Source: Pseudomonadota bacterium
GTDB lineage: Bacteria > Pseudomonadota > Gammaproteobacteria > Steroidobacterales > Steroidobacteraceae
Direction: 5' to 3'
Length of the DNA stretch: 64,000 nt
NCBI GenBank assembly: GCA_021849615.1
Contig: JAJZSQ010000003.1
Coordinates: forward strand, 1-64,000
Part shown: piece after piece, positions 5,764 through 20,211 of the stretch
How the letters are laid out: every line of letters starts with the position of its first letter
How positions within the stretch are numbered: the stretch's first letter is position 1
Notes under the pieces: model-generated
Told to the model about the DNA's origin: nothing
The model's input: only the letters and a program-made list of their open reading frames with translations
Database searches by the model: none
Program-made: the position numbers and the translations under genes

Positions 5764-6114
5764 ATGAAGGATCTACGTCTCTTCCGGCTCGCGGTCCTGT
5801 TGGTCTCTGCCACGCTCGCGCTGTCCGTGCTGTTCTATCCGAGGCTTCCTAAGTTCATTCCAACGCACTGGAGCGCCACTGGCGTAGTCGACGGGTGGAT
5901 GCCGAAATGGCGTGGGGCGTTCTTTTCTCCCGCCCTGTCGTTGGTGCTTGTGGCCTGCCTGATCGTGTTCGAGCCGATCAGGATTCAGGAAGACGTCGGC
6001 GGTCTGGACCCCCGGCATTACCCGATCGTCGTCGCGGGTGTTGCCGGACTGATTTTCTTCGTCAACCTCTGGGTGCTCCTGGAGGGGCTGGGTTGGTATC
6101 CTGCCTTGCCCTAG
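5764..6114 (+). CDS. DUF1648-domain membrane protein (short SdpI-like)
   Basis: 116 aa with three probable membrane helices (residues about 8-25, 53-70, 86-104). The segment 'YPRLPKFIPTHWSATGVVDGW' is the DUF1648 signature found at the N-terminus of SdpI-type immunity and signal-transduction membrane proteins. Those proteins normally continue with further helices to about 200 aa. This one stops after helix 3, so it is either a short version or a truncated remnant. The ATG at 5764 is the natural start. No toxin partner or regulator gene is visible beside it, so an immunity role is not supported. Confidence 0.6.
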   Translation: MKDLRLFRLAVLLVSATLALSVLFYPRLPKFIPTHWSATGVVDGWMPKWRGAFFSPALSLVLVACLIVFEPIRIQEDVGGLDPRHYPIVVAGVAGLIFFVNLWVLLEGLGWYPALP

Positions 6115-6766
6115 CGATGGAACCTCCCGGGGAGTCATTCGCAGATCGTGCAGAAGTCTCGCCCTCATCACATCACTGAAATCCGGCGGCGAGAACCACC
6201 CTGTTCTGGCCGCGATTCGGCGCTGAGCCCAACATGGATTTTCCAGCGGGCGCGGTGCAGTACTTGCCAGCGGCGCATCATGGAAAATCCCCAGTACGGG
6301 TGTGCTCATGCTCGTGGGAGCGAAGCGAGGGAACTTCAGAGGCTGATAGGCGCAGAACCGACAGACGCCGAGTTCCCTTCGGCTCCGCTTCCGTTCGAGC
6401 ATGACCGGCGTGAGGATGCCGTCCGGCCAGTGCCATTGCCAGCAGGTCGTTCCTGCGCCGACCATCAGGGCACAGTGCGGTCAGTCGGTGGCTGCCAGCC
6501 ACAGGGAGTTCAGACGCGTTCTTCTGGGAGCATCGAACTGGCGCAGTAGGGCCGAACGACAGGTGCGTCGCGCCCGTCGAGGGGCGACGCGCTTCGGATC
6601 CTCCTGCTCTTCATAGCGGGGCATTGCGCCCGGCGTCTCGGTGCCGTGACCGGCCGGCGCGTGTCGCACCGAATCTGCTCAGGGATGGGCGGCGCGAATC
6701 CGCTCCACCGTGTACTCTCGGCTTCAAGGGCACCGCGTGCCGCCCCGTCTGAGCGGAACGAAAGAC
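6115..6766. other. Gene-poor stretch with long imperfect hairpins
   Basis: About 650 bases in which no frame shows a recognisable protein. It contains a long imperfect inverted repeat (6306-6404, listed separately) and a shorter hairpin with GCGTCGC/GCGACGC arms at 6565-6590. The ORF-track frames here are compositionally odd and mutually overlapping. This could be remnant mobile or repeat DNA. The promoter of the downstream efflux gene should be at its right end. Confidence 0.35.
6306..6404. repeat. Long imperfect inverted repeat
   Basis: Outer arms TCATGCTCG (6306-6314) and CGAGCATGA (6396-6404) are exact complements. Inner arms AGGGAACT/AGTTCCCT with flanking GAAGCG-like blocks continue the pairing imperfectly. 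The folded structure would be roughly 100 nt. It could be a structured RNA, an IS end remnant or a dispersed repeat; nothing here decides. Confidence 0.4.
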
Positions 6767-13766: not shown

Positions 13767-14183
13767 GCTGCTCCCCTGGTGAATCGAGCGTTGTGAAGGT
13801 CTGGCTGCTGTAGCGTTCAGCGTCTCTCTGCCGTTCAGAACACGGCCACGCCTCACGAGTTGCATGCCGTGAGCAGGGGGCGCCGAATGTGACCCCGGCC
13901 TGACTCCAGGGTGGTGGTTCTCGTCGTCCGTGCGCGGGGAATCCGCCTCAGGAGACCGCCATCCGGAAGGTGATTCGGTCCCGACACATGTCTCGCCGCC
14001 GCAGCGGCCGGACGGCTGGGTCGTGCGGGACGCCTGCCAATTATTTCAGGCACTTGGCGGTCTGTCTCTTCGTGGCACGGGGGTTGCTTGAAGAGCGCTG
14101 CAGCCAGGAACCGACTGTGTGCAGTGGTGAGCGGCGGCGCAATGCATCGCGAAGTCAAACCATCCATGTGCGGAGAACCCTCA
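13767..14183. other. Divergent regulatory region before the Fap-like operon
   Basis: About 415 bases between the S33 peptidase gene start and the Gly-rich protein gene. It holds the sigma-54 promoter at 14073-14089. Upstream lie two small inverted repeats that could be activator sites: GACA-CA-TGTC at 13983-13992 and GCCAA-N13-TTGGC at 14036-14058. Both have short arms and are weak candidates. Confidence 0.45.
14073..14089 (+). promoter_or_regulatory. Sigma-54 (RpoN) promoter
   Basis: TGGCACGGGGGTTGCTT matches the sigma-54 consensus (TGGCACG-N4-TTGCW): GG of the -24 element at 14074-14075 and GC of the -12 element at 14086-14087 are separated by exactly 10 bases. The predicted transcript starts near 14099, about 85 bases before the Gly-rich gene. 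A sigma-54 activator gene sits at the other end of the same cluster. Confidence 0.85.
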
Positions 14184-15374
14184 ATGAAGACGAATAAACT
14201 GATTGCCATGGCCATCGCCGTGGCGCTGGCGTCGGCCTCTGGGCTGGCGATGGCGAGTAACGGAGGTGGAGGAGGCGGTCCTCCATCGAAGTCCGTCACG
14301 AAGAACAGCACGGCAACGCAGGGCGGCAACGGCAGCCCGCAAGCGAACCTCGGTTCGTCGGCGAACGTCAGCAGTTATGACCCGACGACGACGACGAATA
14401 TGAACGTGACGAAGACCGTCACCAACGATACGTGGAACACGACAGTTGCGGCGACGTCGAATCTGAACGCGACGGTGTCCGGAAATACGGTTGCCGGCGT
14501 CGGCAATACCGCCTGGAATACCGGCAATGCCAACGGTGCCAGCGGAGCCGCGGGCGGTCGCGGTGGCGCCGGATATGGCGGCCCGAGTGGTGGATCCTCG
14601 GCGAGTATGTCCACCGCCGGAGGCAACGGAGCGAAGGGCGCCGTCGGGGCGCAGGGCGGTTCGGTGACCGCTGGCGACACCACCAACGGAAGCGCCAGCA
14701 ACGGCAGCGCGCATGCCGGTGAAGGTGGAAACGGCGGGGACGTTGGTTTCACCAAGACCGGAGCCGGAGGCGGAGGCGCCGGGATGGGCGGACCGGCGAC
14801 GGGCGGACTCAGTGCCGCAACGAACAATGGCTCGAGCGGCAGCGGATCGGGACGGCCGGGACCCTACAGCAGCTATCCGGGTGGCTCGAGTGCTCAGCCG
14901 AATAACGCGAGCAGCGGCAACGGCGGGGATGCCTCGGCCGGCAGTGGCACCGGTGGCGGCGCGGCCAACACGGTGGCGAGCACGAATACGGCCGGACAAG
15001 GCGGGTCAGGCGGCTCTGCCGCCAATGGCTACGCGGCGAATGGCAGTGCGACGGCATCGCTCGGCAATGCCGGCAGCGGCGGCAGCGGTGGCAACGGCGG
15101 CAGCGGCGGATCCGGTACCGGAGGCACGCAGGCGACGACGACCGGAACCGGTGGCGTCGGCAACGGAGCGGTCGGGGGAGCGGGTGGCGCAGGGGGCATG
15201 GGCGGAAACAATACCGTGACCGCCGGGACATTCGATATGTCCAACAACATCAGCAGCGCCTTCACCAATGGGGCGGGCATCACGGTGGCGAGCCAGAACA
15301 GCGGCATGTCGTCGCTGATTCAGCAGAGCGTCAACGTGCAGGCCAACCTGTCGCTTTCGGCGACCGGTCATTAG
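14184..15374 (+). CDS. Gly-rich secreted fibre/amyloid-like protein (FapB/C-like candidate)
   Basis: 396 aa from ATG 14184, which has a GGAGA ribosome site; the open frame from 14088 is too long at the front. Residues 1-25 are a signal peptide (ending LAMA-SN). The body (about 25-350) is dominated by Gly, Ser, Ala, Asn and Thr with repeated GGxGG, GNGG and NGSA blocks and no Cys. The last 45 residues differ: 'FDMSNNISSAFTNGAGITVASQNSGMSSLIQQSVNVQANL'. A near-copy of this tail occurs in the next protein. With a C39 peptidase and FapF-like barrel in the same locus, a major subunit of an extracellular fibre or adhesin is the best guess. This is inference; no single residue proves amyloid formation. 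It may instead be a non-polymerising adhesin. Confidence 0.65.
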   Translation: MKTNKLIAMAIAVALASASGLAMASNGGGGGGPPSKSVTKNSTATQGGNGSPQANLGSSANVSSYDPTTTTNMNVTKTVTNDTWNTTVAATSNLNATVSGNTVAGVGNTAWNTGNANGASGAAGGRGGAGYGGPSGGSSASMSTAGGNGAKGAVGAQGGSVTAGDTTNGSASNGSAHAGEGGNGGDVGFTKTGAGGGGAGMGGPATGGLSAATNNGSSGSGSGRPGPYSSYPGGSSAQPNNASSGNGGDASAGSGTGGGAANTVASTNTAGQGGSGGSAANGYAANGSATASLGNAGSGGSGGNGGSGGSGTGGTQATTTGTGGVGNGAVGGAGGAGGMGGNNTVTAGTFDMSNNISSAFTNGAGITVASQNSGMSSLIQQSVNVQANLSLSATGH

Positions 15375-15440: not shown

Positions 15441-15938
15441 ATGAATCACCCCATAGTACCGATCATCATGCTGGCGTCCCTGGGCGCTCTCGGGTGTGCT
15501 GCCGCGCGGGGTGAGACGCCGAAGCCGCCCCCCGTTCCGGCGCCGAAGGTCCAGGCCCGTTCGGCCGTTCAAGGGACTGCACGGCAGACCTCGCCCGTGC
15601 GGACCGCTGCTGCGGTGCGCCCGTCAAAGACGCCAGCGCACGCAAAGCCGGATGCGAAATCCCCTTCGGACTCGGCGGCCCTGCTGAGCGCGGCGGTGAT
15701 CGGGGATGCCCTCCTCGCCAAGGAGCGCGGTGGCACCGATACCCAGCTGAGTCAGAACAATTCCAACGGTGCGGTCAGCGGAAACGTGGCCTCGCAGCTG
15801 ACCACCGGGTCGAACTCGATCAGCAGCAGCGCGTTCTCGAACTCCTCGGGCATTCCGATCGTCATCCAGAATTCCGGCAACAACGTGTTGATTCAGAACT
15901 CGACGATCCTGAACCTGCAGCTGACCGGCCAGAAGTAA
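15441..15938 (+). CDS. Small secreted protein of the Fap-like cluster with GG motif and shared tail
   Basis: 165 aa. The N-terminus is a short hydrophobic segment (about residues 4-22) ending at a Cys (GALGCAAARG) that is only a poor lipobox, so the type of signal peptide is unclear. Residues 27-85 are Pro/Ala/Lys-rich and disordered-looking. A double-Gly site follows ('GDALLAKERGG', Gly 97-98), then a 67-residue C-terminal part ending 'SSSAFSNSSGIPIVIQNSGNNVLIQNSTILNLQL'. That tail closely parallels the end of the Gly-rich protein. It may be a minor or nucleating subunit, matured by the adjacent peptidase. Good ribosome site (GGAGG) 7 bases before the ATG. Confidence 0.65.
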   Translation: MNHPIVPIIMLASLGALGCAAARGETPKPPPVPAPKVQARSAVQGTARQTSPVRTAAAVRPSKTPAHAKPDAKSPSDSAALLSAAVIGDALLAKERGGTDTQLSQNNSNGAVSGNVASQLTTGSNSISSSAFSNSSGIPIVIQNSGNNVLIQNSTILNLQLTGQK

Positions 15939-15948
15939 AGGCGCTGTC

Positions 15949-16650
15949 GTGAAAAGGGTTCAGGGGGCGACGCTCCCGATGGCGCTCGGGCTGCTGGCGG
16001 TAAGCGCCGCGCACGCCGAAGGCATGATCCAGGTGAGTGCCGGGGAGTCGTATTCGGTGCCCGTGCACACGTTGCAGCAGATGCGTTATGAATGGGCATT
16101 CCGCCGCACGGTGCATCAGCGATACGACTTCAGTTGTGGTTCGGCGGCGCTCGCGACGCTACTGACCTACCAATACGGGCGCCCGACTACCGAGACCGCC
16201 GTGTTCCGCTCGATGTACGCGGTGGGCAATCAGGCGCAGATCCGTGTCGAGGGCTTCTCGCTGCTCGATATGAAGCGTTATCTGCAGAGTCTGGGCTACG
16301 TGGCTGACGGGGTGCGGGTCCCTCTGAGCACGCTGATCAGGATCGGCATCCCGGCGATCGCCCTGATCACCGATCACGGCTACCGGCACTTCGTCGTCGT
16401 CAAGGGCGCCAGTGCCTATCGGGTGGTGCTCGGGGATCCGGCGCTTGGCCGCCGGGTCATGTCCCGCAAGGCGTTCGCGCGCGTGCGGGTGGGCAATCTG
16501 TTCTTCGTGATCCGCAACGATCTGAATATCGCCCGGTTCAATCTGCCGGCCGACTGGAGATCGGCGACGCCGCCGCCGCTGTTCCTCGGCGTGGATCGGC
16601 ATTCACTGGCCCTTGAATTCCTTGAAATTCCAAACGGGAATCGCTTCTGA
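15949..16650 (+). CDS. Periplasmic C39-family cysteine peptidase (FapD-like)
   Basis: 233 aa from a GTG start, 10 bases after the previous stop, with an AAGG ribosome site. A signal peptide (residues about 1-24, ending AHA) puts it in the periplasm, unlike the C39 domains fused to ABC exporters. The catalytic set is intact: Gln and Cys in 'HQRYDFSCGSAAL', His in 'GYRHFVVVKG', Asp in 'VLGDPALG'. C39 peptidases cleave after double-Gly leaders. Two secreted neighbours carry such motifs, making them the likely substrates. In Pseudomonas the equivalent gene fapD is required for functional-amyloid export; orthology is inferred from context and fold. Confidence 0.85.
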   Translation: MKRVQGATLPMALGLLAVSAAHAEGMIQVSAGESYSVPVHTLQQMRYEWAFRRTVHQRYDFSCGSAALATLLTYQYGRPTTETAVFRSMYAVGNQAQIRVEGFSLLDMKRYLQSLGYVADGVRVPLSTLIRIGIPAIALITDHGYRHFVVVKGASAYRVVLGDPALGRRVMSRKAFARVRVGNLFFVIRNDLNIARFNLPADWRSATPPPLFLGVDRHSLALEFLEIPNGNRF

Positions 16651-16666
16651 GCGAGTGGAGGCCCGT

Positions 16667-17755
16667 ATGCGCATTCTCAAACCGTTGATCCTGGGGCTGT
16701 GCGTCGGCTCCAGTGCGGCTGCGGTGGCCTCGCCGGTGAGCATTCTGGCCGCGGAACGGGCCGAAGCTTCCTGGGTCGTCGTGCCGGATGCGGAGCTCGC
16801 CCGGCTGCACGGCGGCTTCGACTTTGGTCAAGGCAACCTGGTTGCGTATTTCGCCATCGCACGCACCGTGGAGGTGAACGGCCAGGTGGTGGCCCAGATG
16901 CAGCTGGTGATCTCCAATCTCGGCAATCTCGCCTCCGGTGGCCAGCCGCAGATTTCCGTTACCGGTCCGCTTGCCCAGCTGATCCAGGTGCTCAATTCGG
17001 GACAGGGAGCATCGGCGAGCGGTGCGGCGGGAGTGCCGGTTGACGCCGCCCTGCCGCTCCTCGCCTCGCCGGCGGGAGCCACTCCGGTCGCAAGCTCGGT
17101 TGTCGCTGCCTCGAGTTCCCCGGGCGTGACGAGCGGCTCGGTGAGCTCTCCTGACGTGCAGAGCGGATCGACGGCCCAATTCGGTGGTGCGCTCTCCAGT
17201 GCCGTTGCGGCGGCCAATGGTGCACTGACCGGGGGAGGCGGCGGAACGGCGCCGGCAACCGCTGCGCCCGCCGCCGGAGCCGTCGGTGCGCGCACCGCGC
17301 CGTTGCCGGCCCAGGTGAGTCCGACGGTCCAGGCCGGCCCCGTGGCCTCTGCGAGTCCGCCAGCCTCGGTAGCGCCGGCAACCACTGCGCCCGCCCCCGG
17401 ACCGGCCGGCGCGCGGACTGCGCCGCTGCCGGCGCAGGTGAGTCCGACGGTCCAGGCCGGTCCCGTGGCCTCTGCGAGTCTGCCAGCCCCGGTAGCGCCA
17501 GCCCCAGCCGCGGTGGCGACCGCATCGCCGCCGGTGACGAGTGCGCCCGGCCCCGGCGGGGTGGTGCCCGTCATCGTGATCAGCAATCTCCCGAACGCAA
17601 CCGCCATCACGACGGCGGTGCAGAACGACGTGCAGGCAACCACCGTCCAGACTCAGACCACCATCACCGCGACGCTGGGCAGCCTGCCTGTGGTCAATGC
17701 GATGTCGCTGGCGGCTGCGATCCAGTCGCAGGTGGCCGCCTCGATCGGACACTGA
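16667..17755 (+). CDS. Secreted protein with canonical double-Gly processing motif (Fap-like cluster)
   Basis: 362 aa. ATG 16667 follows a GTGGAGG ribosome site, 16 bases after the peptidase stop. A signal peptide (about 1-21, ending AVA) is followed by a short pro-segment and 'VVPDAELARLHGG' (Gly 49-50), with EL at -8/-7 and Leu at -4, exactly the C39 leader pattern. Next comes a folded-looking part ('FDFGQGNLVAYFAIARTVEVNGQVVAQMQL'). A long Ala/Pro/Ser/Val-rich region includes a 41-residue unit present twice. The last 60 residues are Thr/Gln-rich ('NDVQATTVQTQTTITATL'). It fits a cell-surface or fibre-associated component (FapE-like by position only). It converges on the barrel gene with a 14-base gap. 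Confidence 0.65.
   Translation: MRILKPLILGLCVGSSAAAVASPVSILAAERAEASWVVVPDAELARLHGGFDFGQGNLVAYFAIARTVEVNGQVVAQMQLVISNLGNLASGGQPQISVTGPLAQLIQVLNSGQGASASGAAGVPVDAALPLLASPAGATPVASSVVAASSSPGVTSGSVSSPDVQSGSTAQFGGALSSAVAAANGALTGGGGGTAPATAAPAAGAVGARTAPLPAQVSPTVQAGPVASASPPASVAPATTAPAPGPAGARTAPLPAQVSPTVQAGPVASASLPAPVAPAPAAVATASPPVTSAPGPGGVVPVIVISNLPNATAITTAVQNDVQATTVQTQTTITATLGSLPVVNAMSLAAAIQSQVAASIGH
17255..17500 (+). repeat. Two tandem 123-bp coding repeats
   Basis: Units 17255-17377 and 17378-17500 each encode 41 residues (…GARTAPLPAQVSPTVQAGPV…). The middle third is almost identical at DNA level and the ends differ by scattered substitutions. This is an in-frame duplication in the Pro/Ala-rich linker of the double-Gly protein. 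Confidence 0.85.
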
Positions 17756-17769
17756 TGCGTCGCGCCCCC

Positions 17770-18819
17770 TCAGAAGGACATCGGCAGACGGATGGTCGCC
17801 TCGAGATCGGGCGAATCGCGTGTGACGCCCACGCCGATCGTTATGTTCATCAGCGTGCGCGGATTGACCCGATAGGTGACGCCAAAGCGCAGCGTACCGA
17901 GCTGCAGGGTGCCGACCCGGGCGAGCGCCAATCCGCTCGCAGGAGTCGTCTGGGTGGTCTGGAAGACGATGCTGTGCTGGTAGCCAATGCTGAAAGACGC
18001 GCGCGCATTGAGCGCAAGACCCATGCCGAGGGTCACGTCGATGATGGCTCCGGGGTGGATGTACCCGTATCCGTGTCCCACATTGCGACTGATGCTGTAC
18101 GTGTAATCGGCACCTCCGAAGAAGACGGCCGGATCGGATGGCAGCAGGAACGTAATGCCGGGTTGAACCGCATTGAACCCGGAGCCCGTGGCGAGCGTGC
18201 TCTGCAGGCCGGTGTTCGGGTCGATCGGCTCCTGGAAGATGCTGGTCCCAGTGTGCGACTTGAACAGCAGCGACCCGATCCACACGATGTTGTTGCCGTG
18301 AAACTCGTTCAACTGCGCGCGCAGCGCCACTTCCGCATCGCCGATATCGCTGCCGGACGCATCAAAATACGAATTCGTGGTGGCTGCAGTGGCCAACGGG
18401 CGGGTCTCCGTGGTGGTGTTTGCAATCACGTACGGCACGCGCACTTCGATTTCAAGACGCCGCAGCAGCCCGTAACGTGCCGTCAGGTTGTAGGTCGTCA
18501 AATTGCTTTCGATGCGCTGAACGTCGATCAGCCCAATGGTCAGCGCAGGCAGGACCGTGTACCCGAGCAGGGCGATCTGATTGTTGGTGGAATGCACGTA
18601 TTGGATAGACGGTTCAAGAACGAGTGTGCCCTGTGGCGTCAATGCCGTTGGTTCGGAGAACACCTGTGCCGCCGGCGCCGGACCCTTCGGGGCCGCTGGC
18701 GCCTGGCCGACCGGAGCCGGCTGGGCAGCCGGTGGAGAATCGGCGGCGAATACATGAGCGCTGTGGGTCAAGGCCGCTGCGAGCAGCGCGCTTGCGGCAA
18801 GAATGTGGGAACGGCGCAT
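17770..18819 (-). CDS. Outer-membrane beta-barrel, FapF-like transporter
   Basis: 349 aa from ATG 18819, preferred over 18834 because GGGAG lies 8 bases upstream. Signal peptide about 1-26 (ending VFA). A Pro/Ala-rich linker (about 27-55) precedes 'ALTPQGTLVLEPSIQYVHSTNNQIALLGYTVLPALTIGLIDV', the recognisable start of FapF-type barrels. Alternating hydrophobic strands continue to 'EATIRLPMSF', whose terminal Phe is the usual barrel-assembly signal. In Pseudomonas FapF forms the trimeric channel that secretes amyloid subunits. Here the gene is on the opposite strand from the putative cargo genes and 33 bases after the sigma-54 activator, probably co-transcribed with it. It could alternatively be a general porin-like exporter. 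Confidence 0.75.
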   Translation of the reverse strand: MRRSHILAASALLAAALTHSAHVFAADSPPAAQPAPVGQAPAAPKGPAPAAQVFSEPTALTPQGTLVLEPSIQYVHSTNNQIALLGYTVLPALTIGLIDVQRIESNLTTYNLTARYGLLRRLEIEVRVPYVIANTTTETRPLATAATTNSYFDASGSDIGDAEVALRAQLNEFHGNNIVWIGSLLFKSHTGTSIFQEPIDPNTGLQSTLATGSGFNAVQPGITFLLPSDPAVFFGGADYTYSISRNVGHGYGYIHPGAIIDVTLGMGLALNARASFSIGYQHSIVFQTTQTTPASGLALARVGTLQLGTLRFGVTYRVNPRTLMNITIGVGVTRDSPDLEATIRLPMSF

Positions 18820-18852
18820 TGTTCTTTCTCCCATGGCGTGGCGACGGATCGC

Positions 18853-20211
18853 TCAGGAGTCGAGCGCACTGAAACCCCGACGCGGTGACATACCTAGGCG
18901 CTTGAGGATCCGGTAGAGAGTGACCCGCGAGACACCGAGCTCGCGCGCGGTTGCCGCGATGTTGTGGCCGCTGCGGTCGAGTGCTGTCTCGATGAGTTGC
19001 CGTTCAGTCCCCGCACGCGCATCGGCCAGTGAGCCGCTGGCGCAGAGCGCGCCGCGCCGTTCGAGCTGCAGGTCCGCCGGAGTGATGAGCGATCCGTTGC
19101 ACATCACGACGGCATGCTGGACTTTGTTCAGAAGCTCACGGATGTTCCCGGGCCAGCTGTGATGCCGGATCGCAGTGAGCGCCGCTTCGGAGAAGCCGCG
19201 CACGCCGGGCTGTCGGCCGGTGACTTCCCGGCGCAGGAAGTGCTCGGCCAGCAGGACACTGTCCGCGCCGCGTGAGCGCAGCGGCGGGATCTCGACATGC
19301 AGGACATTCAGCCGGTAGAACAGGTCCTCGCGAAACTCTCCGGATCGAACCGCGGCACTGAGGTCCTTGTGCGTTGCGGCGATGACGCGCGCATCGATCC
19401 GCAGCTCGTGAGTCGAACCGACACGAGTCACCGTGGACTCCTGCAGAAAGCGCAGCAGGCTCGCCTGGGCCGCTCGCGGCAGGTCGCCGATCTCGTCGAG
19501 GAAGATCGTGCCATGATGCGCCGCTTCGATCGAGCCGATCTGACGTTCGTGCGCGCCGGTAAAGGAGCCGCGTTCATGTCCGAACAGCAGGCTTTCAATG
19601 AGCGCCTGGGGCAGCGCGCCACAATTGACCGGCACGAACGGACCGGCGGACCGTTCGGATCCGCAGTGCACTGCGCGGGCGGCGAGCTCTTTGCCCACGC
19701 CGCTCTCGCCGGTCAACAGCAATGGCGCGCCGGCTCGCATCACCCGCTCGAGCTGCCGATACAGCGTCTGCATGCCGGGGCTCTCGCCGATCATGCCGTA
19801 CTGGCCGCGGCCGGGCATCGCTGGGGCGAATGCGGCGCGGCGCAGCACCGATTTCCCGTAAGCGTGCCCCAACGAATGCAACAGGCGCGCACCGTCGAGC
19901 GGCAGCGTGTGAAAGTCGAAGAATACCGAGGCGAGCGCACGCGCCGTGCGCGGGTCTTGAGGCGCTTCCTTGGGGATGACGGCCAGCCATTCCATGTCGC
20001 TTGGCGCGCCGACGGTCAAGAAGTCACCCGGGGTGCAGGCGAGCGCTTCGTCGAACACTGCAACCCCAACAGTAGTGTCCAATTCACCACCCGGCTTGCG
20101 GACCTCGGCCAAGGAGGTTGCACGGCGGATCTCCCAGTTCTGGGCGGTGAACAGACTGACGAGATCCAGTGAGGAGCCGTCGCCTTGAAGTACGACAACG
20201 CGCCGAAGCAT
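18853..20211 (-). CDS. Sigma-54-dependent transcriptional activator, possibly VpsR-like
   Basis: 452 aa. Residues 1-125 are a receiver-like domain lacking a clear phospho-acceptor pocket, reminiscent of the VpsR group. The AAA+ domain (about 140-375) has Walker A 'TGESGVGKEL', Walker B 'GTIFLDEIGDL', and the sigma-54 contact loop as GSFTGA rather than GAFTGA. 'RLNVLHVEIPPLRSR' and 'HSWPGNIREL' follow. The C-terminus is a Fis-type helix-turn-helix ('NIAATARELGVSRVTLYRILKRLG'). It very likely activates the sigma-54 promoter at 14073 and so the Fap-like operon. Some VpsR relatives bind c-di-GMP; that is not shown here. Confidence 0.85.
   Translation of the reverse strand: MLRRVVVLQGDGSSLDLVSLFTAQNWEIRRATSLAEVRKPGGELDTTVGVAVFDEALACTPGDFLTVGAPSDMEWLAVIPKEAPQDPRTARALASVFFDFHTLPLDGARLLHSLGHAYGKSVLRRAAFAPAMPGRGQYGMIGESPGMQTLYRQLERVMRAGAPLLLTGESGVGKELAARAVHCGSERSAGPFVPVNCGALPQALIESLLFGHERGSFTGAHERQIGSIEAAHHGTIFLDEIGDLPRAAQASLLRFLQESTVTRVGSTHELRIDARVIAATHKDLSAAVRSGEFREDLFYRLNVLHVEIPPLRSRGADSVLLAEHFLRREVTGRQPGVRGFSEAALTAIRHHSWPGNIRELLNKVQHAVVMCNGSLITPADLQLERRGALCASGSLADARAGTERQLIETALDRSGHNIAATARELGVSRVTLYRILKRLGMSPRRGFSALDS

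Follow-up and report, generated by a model that had tools for sequence, protein, structure and literature searches.

Canonical double-glycine leaders carry hydrophobic residues at positions -12, -7 and -4, and the cut follows the second glycine. In C39 substrates described so far, the residue pair ahead of the cut is GG, GA or GS. In the Fap system (FapA-F), FapD is a periplasmic C39 peptidase whose catalytic cysteine is required for secretion, and secretion of FapC is abolished in a FapD C38A mutant (PMC5557850). The target of FapD was reported as unknown, although FapE has been suspected as its substrate (PMC5557850; PMC6173800), and we found no later paper that assigns one. Canonical C39 sites were described as absent from the Fap proteins by Rouse et al. 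(2017; PMC5557850).

In the nap island of Neisseria, a free C39 peptidase (NapP) and a FapF-like channel (NapF) are accompanied by GG leaders, and periplasmic cleavage was proposed for this island in 2025 (PMC11798529). The Fil system of Acinetobacter (FilA, FilB and FilC) contains the C39 protein FilB, and the Sec signal of FilA is directly followed by the leader-like stretch MDDAALSAATGQ. An earlier note on the DNA studied here had proposed that two proteins flanking an exported C39 peptidase are cut at double glycines after Sec export, and had contrasted this with ordinary bacteriocin systems, where C39 cuts in the cytoplasm. Because FapD is already known (PMC5557850), such action is not new in kind; the system type, a Fap pathway with a periplasmic FapD, is an established one.

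Gene organization and relation to Fap

The features of the locus are collected in Table 1, in which positions refer to the window, the whole 64,000-nucleotide stretch of DNA that was analysed. Proteins are called by the first position of their genes.

Table 1. Features of the locus, their positions in the window and the basis of each assignment.
Feature	Position	Strand	Basis
Sigma-54 (-24/-12) promoter TGGCACGGGGGTTGC, 97 bases upstream of first gene	14073..14087	+	pattern match
Secreted, Gly-rich protein (Sec signal), candidate for the main fibre subunit	14184..15374	+	translation
Small exported 15441 protein: Sec signal, Pro/Ala-rich pro-region, C39-type leader, C-terminal part	15441..15938	+	
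Leader AVIGDALLAKERGG, residues 85-98 of 15441 protein	15693..15734	+	rank 2/84,460 14-mers
Sec-exported C39 peptidase, FapD-like; GTG start, Sec-type N-terminus	15949..16650	+	Pfam, NCBIfam
Exported protein at FapE position (first gene past peptidase)	16667..17755	+	translation
Leader VVVPDAELARLHGG, residues 37-50 of 16667 protein	16775..16816	+	rank 1/84,460 14-mers
FapF-like outer-membrane channel, convergent to operon	17770..18834	-	NCBIfam, profile search
Sigma-54-dependent activator, VpsR-type N-terminal domain	18853..20211	-	Pfam

The peptidase is a solo protein of 233 residues without an ABC transporter domain. It matches Pfam C39 (2.2e-17), NCBIfam C39_FapD (3e-37; at 128 bits, below the equivalog cut-off of 330 bits) and NCBIfam FilB (4.7e-31), and the catalytic residues and oxyanion glutamine (Gln57, Cys63, His147 and Asp163) are intact. 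Its predicted fold (mean pLDDT 63) is nearest to the peptidase domains of ComA and PCAT1, and the fold matches include 6mpz, a C39 domain solved together with a leader peptide. Elsewhere in the genome, C39 was matched just once, by a 754-residue frame on another contig, and no relative of the peptidase was found among viral contigs.

The C39 fold and catalytic residues are shared with the ABC peptidases and class II bacteriocin systems represented by ComA, PCAT1, LahT and colicin V, as is the leader rule of hydrophobic residues at -12, -7 and -4 followed by GG. Unlike those enzymes, the window's peptidase is not fused to an ABC transporter, and since the peptidase and its candidate substrates all carry Sec signals, the reaction would be periplasmic rather than cytosolic. 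The relationship to Fil is seen in the FilB match given above; the Fil substrates belong to another family, and the Fil leader ends in GQ. Nap substrates are described as small class II microcin-like peptides (PMC11798529), whereas the candidate substrates of the window are longer, Sec-exported and of fibre type.

The channel matches NCBIfam FapF (2e-31) at 109 bits, short of the 700-bit equivalog cut-off, and a profile of the channel and its relatives matches the FapF crystal structures 5o67/5o65 at 5e-24 to 1e-23. A fold search likewise gave 5o67 as best match, from a model of low confidence (mean pLDDT 47), and therefore only the sequence-profile match is relied on. As in Fap, an exported C39 peptidase is followed by a gene for an exported leader protein at the FapE position and accompanied by a FapF-type channel, and a sigma-54 activator-like gene lies nearby in several loci. 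Unlike Fap, the window's locus has GG in place of G[RK] at the predicted cut site, the channel gene is on the opposite strand, and none of the remaining proteins shows detectable homology to the FapA, FapB, FapC and FapE models. Given FapD and FapF scores below the equivalog cut-offs, the sequence comparisons identify a divergent Fap-type (functional amyloid) locus, Fap-like rather than Fap proper; the earlier note had not recognized this character. Loci with the order small gene, C39 peptidase, leader gene and channel also occur in Alpha- and Betaproteobacteria and in further Gammaproteobacteria.

The promoter is the only exact match to TGGCAC-N5-TTGC within the window, and it is kept ahead of the orthologous gene in the relatives L003-L009 (five exact, two with one mismatch). 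The activator, which matches Pfam Sigma54_activat (7.7e-66), VpsR (1.3e-8) and HTH_8, is likely to be the regulator of the locus. Control of the fibre locus by sigma-54 is probable, given the perfect, conserved promoter and the activator encoded next to the channel.

In the 14184 protein, no C39-type leader and no family match were found. Its C-terminus resembles that of the 15441 protein, and in relatives the two are 51-54% identical over approximately 40 amino acids. The C-terminal part of the 15441 protein comprises 67 residues, with N, Q and S abundant. A search at the protein level gave no paralogue of the 15441 protein. A lipoprotein reading of the N-terminus of this protein (LGC) was rejected because the cysteine is replaced by alanine in L004 and L005. 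A profile of FapB/FapC-type repeats from classical loci gave matches with E<1 only in the 15441-type proteins of relatives, where they are weak (E 0.2-1), and none with E<1 in the window's own 15441 protein.

Leader sites in the window and at other FapD-type loci

Translation places both genes, their glycines and the coordinates where the earlier note had them, and both proteins begin with a Sec-type export signal ahead of the GG site. The N-terminal region of the 16667 protein reads MRILKPLILGLCVGSSAAAVASPVSILAAERAEASWVVVPDAELARLHGG and continues with FDFG; PDAELARLHGG occupies residues 40-50, and the GG lies approximately 28 residues past the likely signal-peptidase site. With V at -12, L at -7, L at -4 and GG, this site satisfies the double-glycine rule, and the fit that had been claimed for it is thus borne out. 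In the 15441 protein, AVIGDALLAKERGG is followed by TDTQ, with Gly 97-98 at the end of the leader. Here I, L and GG are present but Glu occupies -4, which agrees with the partial fit described before. The two sites have a common pattern of a hydrophobic residue at -12, mostly Asp at -10, Leu at -7, a basic residue at -3, and GG, in proteins that are otherwise unlike.

To score these sites, a position-specific model was trained on FapE-position sites only, leaving out loci whose C39 peptidase was at least 60% identical, and was applied to the window, whose open frames, in all six reading frames, contain 84,460 14-residue stretches. At 21.3 bits the 16667 site scored highest, followed by the 15441 site at 13.2 bits; the third-ranked stretch, at 12.7 bits, lies in an unrelated frame. 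FapE-position and 15441-type sites likewise take first and second place in the eight closest relatives (L003-L010; genome contigs, C39 identity 50-94%), and all eight have GG in both proteins. A simple regular expression found three matches in the window's open frames, two of them the sites discussed here; residue shuffles gave 0.35 matches on average and reached three in 2 of 300.

FapD-type or related C39 peptidases were present in 49 of 369 genomes of the class and in 38 of 399 of the phylum sample. The gene after the peptidase carries the leader in the 47 training loci, and when relatives were left out of the scoring its site topped the whole locus in 44 and ranked second, second and fourth in the remaining three. 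Since presence of the site was a condition for choosing the training loci, new loci provide the fair test. Outside training, the leader was found in 25 of 26 FapD-type loci, two identical repeats not being counted: in the window's clade 12 of 13 have GG (L113 shows no leader), and all 13 classical loci have G[RK]. Among the loci fetched, L064 is the only one in the FapD-type part of the tree for which no leader gene was found after the peptidase, and its peptidase frame is short (173 residues).

Double glycines are frequent in this setting, and Gly- and Ala-rich proteins of a high-GC genome might resemble leaders by chance. The two sites nevertheless rank first and second of 84,460, their GG is invariant among near relatives, and the leader recurs at nearly all of the held-out loci, so that we consider the probability of a chance resemblance negligible. 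The glycine-site observation is confirmed.

The cut-site residue and the peptidase tree

A tree was built from 55 C39 peptidases; L046 and L087 were omitted, as the frames used for them showed no catalytic Cys. It separates an RGG clade, to which the window belongs, from the classical and Fil-type rest at 99/99 support. In the window's clade, 29 of 30 tree rows have the motif [VIL]x[DSE]xxLxx[LM]RGG after the Sec signal of the post-peptidase gene, and the sites end in RGG or HGG with F, I, M or L as the next residue; L086, with VGR, is the one exception. Sites of the classical FapD clade end in RG[RK][YF], for example SEIPDPELNLMRGRYT in L048, and the 15 classical tree rows have RG[RK]. By this comparison of sequences, the residue at the predicted cut site changes together with the peptidase clade.

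Residue 120 of the peptidase is a clear clade-specific position (25 of 29 RGG-clade rows have Asp, 13 of 15 classical rows have Arg) and a candidate specificity determinant. In L087, on a plasmid of Vibrio sp. SCSIO 43009, the C39 match is split in two (6001-6589) where no gene is annotated, and no catalytic Cys is present in the open frame that was used; the peptidase gene is possibly broken, and the adjoining leader genes are intact.

The C-terminal region of the 16667 protein, for which NCBIfam gave no match, is homologous to same-position proteins of RGG-clade loci (hhalign 92%, E 8e-7). Between the RGG and classical clades, no homology of the mature FapE-position proteins was detected (hhalign about 1%). 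As the mature parts do not align, the correspondence of the 16667 protein to FapE rests on position and leader, and we therefore call it a FapE-position protein, not FapE.

Between distant relatives the leader is 44-49% identical, compared with 10-18% for the 24 residues upstream and 24-31% for the 40 residues downstream, and it is thus a conserved island. The moderate conservation of the segment that comes next would suit a motif with which the mature fibre domain simply begins, or one that is read by the FapF-like channel, in either case having nothing to do with the peptidase. We consider this quite improbable, given that the motif is common to unlike proteins (the 15441 type, the FapE position and some FapF-like proteins), that it matches the C39 leader rule, and that its P1 residue tracks the peptidase clade.

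The leader, as judged from alignments, is more widely conserved than its GG. FapE-position sites have an invariant Gly at -2 and G, R or K at -1, and the wider 15441-type relatives keep the leader with the endings RGG, RGR, RGM, RGT, RAK, RAM or SGR. The check that the earlier note had named, conservation of GG in homologues, thus succeeds in the eight nearest relatives for both proteins, and nearly always for the FapE-position protein across the window's peptidase clade, but not more widely: the second Gly is Arg or Lys in classical FapE and varies in the wider 15441 relatives.

C39-like chaperone domains exist in type 1 secretion, and a leader whose core is kept where GG is not, as with RG[RK] in classical FapE, could serve for docking or targeting only, with the C39 protein acting as a periplasmic chaperone like the inactive C39-like domain of HlyB. 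Such chaperone domains have also been raised in PMC5557850. This explanation is improbable in our view, because Gln, Cys, His and Asp are invariant in 44 of 44 aligned FapD-type peptidases of both clades, the C38A exchange in FapD abolishes FapC secretion (PMC5557850), and the RGG clade retains GG in the FapE-position protein.

Cleavage guided by the leader is our preferred explanation, and the position of the cut admits a variant of it. The first glycine is the position conserved across both clades, so the peptidase might cut directly after it, between R-G and whatever residue follows. The invariant Gly at -2 of FapE-position sites would fit this, as would upstream proteins in which RG is followed by G, R, M or T, or RA by K, and Fil-type leaders in which TG is followed by Q. 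The hydrophobic spacing, however, agrees with canonical leaders if the cut follows the second Gly, where known C39 enzymes place it after GG, GA or GS, and we regard the variant as rather unlikely. We know of no C39 peptidase that accepts Arg or Lys at P1, so in classical loci the leader could dock only, or the cut could lie one residue earlier. Since the second glycine is not universal and the first is constant at the FapE position, cleavage may occur after GG or directly after the first glycine, or the role of the leader in some lineages may be limited to binding.

The leader in genuine FapE and a proposed processing route

One Pseudomonas locus (L126) has FapD, FapE and FapF scores of 426, 351 and 765 bits, all above the NCBIfam cut-offs (330, 250 and 700), the FapF being almost identical to that crystallised from Pseudomonas sp. 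UK4 (5o65). The N-terminal region of its FapE, MNTSRWLTVLCLAASMPAYASSGFKPIELKDAEMAELRGRYVMPGR, comprises the signal peptide and, within 20 residues of it, the leader PIELKDAEMAELRGRY. Divergent loci keep the canonical GG, and it is therefore that the degenerate site in genuine FapE can be recognized. In published mass spectrometry, FapA peptides were obtained throughout the protein and FapE peptides only beyond approximately residue 70, not exactly at the motif; FapE is the sole Fap protein without N-terminal peptides (PMC5557850). The new part, as read from these sequences, is the conserved leader that links the window's locus to genuine FapE.

We put the probability at roughly two in three that the two fibre-associated proteins of the window undergo Sec export, leader-guided periplasmic processing by the C39 peptidase, and secretion through the FapF-like channel. 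The type of locus, the exported and intact peptidase, the two leaders with their conservation, and the joint change of cut-site residue and clade are consistent with this route. The products of the locus would cross into the periplasm via Sec. The free FapD-like peptidase would then bind the leader that lies past the signal peptide in the 15441 and 16667 proteins and cut at or beside the double glycine, and the mature parts so freed would be secreted and assembled into fibres through the channel. From the earlier proposal of Sec followed by C39, the arrangement of a Sec signal and then a leader, beside an exported intact C39 peptidase, stands and is kept across a wide clade; (near-)invariance of GG is confined to the FapE-position protein of the peptidase clade to which the window belongs.

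The window's FapF-like protein was considered as a third leader substrate and rejected, as it has no leader site. Elsewhere, FapF-like proteins have an RGG leader before the barrel (L057, 3315-4568; L065, 3390-4661; L082, 7871-9376; L092, 7811-9337), and the channel itself may therefore be a third substrate in some lineages. L082 is the locus of Cupriavidus metallidurans CH34, which has three RGG proteins. The leaders of FapF-like proteins recall the GG/GA motifs that Rouse et al. noted in FapF (PMC5557850).

More broadly, the leader might mark the substrates of all solo Sec-exported C39 peptidases, as part of a general Sec-then-C39 route for surface fibres of Gram-negative bacteria, an extension we hold tentatively and regard as close to evenly balanced. 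FapD would then act on FapE at PIELKD.E[ML]..LRG[RK]Y, while the two GG leaders would be targets of the window's peptidase and GQ or AG leaders those of Fil-type peptidases, and peptidase and cut-site residue would have switched jointly between clades.

Other solo C39 loci, Fil-like and unnamed (L075, L076, L077, L089 and L125), have Sec-exported neighbours with a leader-like mature start ending in AG, GQ or GG, such as APTELTEAQMDQVSAG; in L075, three genes of this kind follow one another. On plasmid p12SAAs474 of Acinetobacter sp. SAAs474 (L091), three small genes with the common leader LELSRQEMKDTQGA precede a solo C39 peptidase. Contig C11 of genome G012 carries an RGG-type and a classical FapD-type locus together, at approximately 249 kb and 338 kb (L071 and L046), a pair that is useful for asking whether two peptidases keep their own substrates.

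The question of the FapD substrate dates from the demonstration that the catalytic Cys is necessary for amyloid secretion. A tag that can be traced to real Pseudomonas FapE suggests, at the level of sequence, what FapD may act on, and narrows this question to a prediction on a single short segment. It also provides one rule that solo C39 peptidases of fibre-type loci could share.
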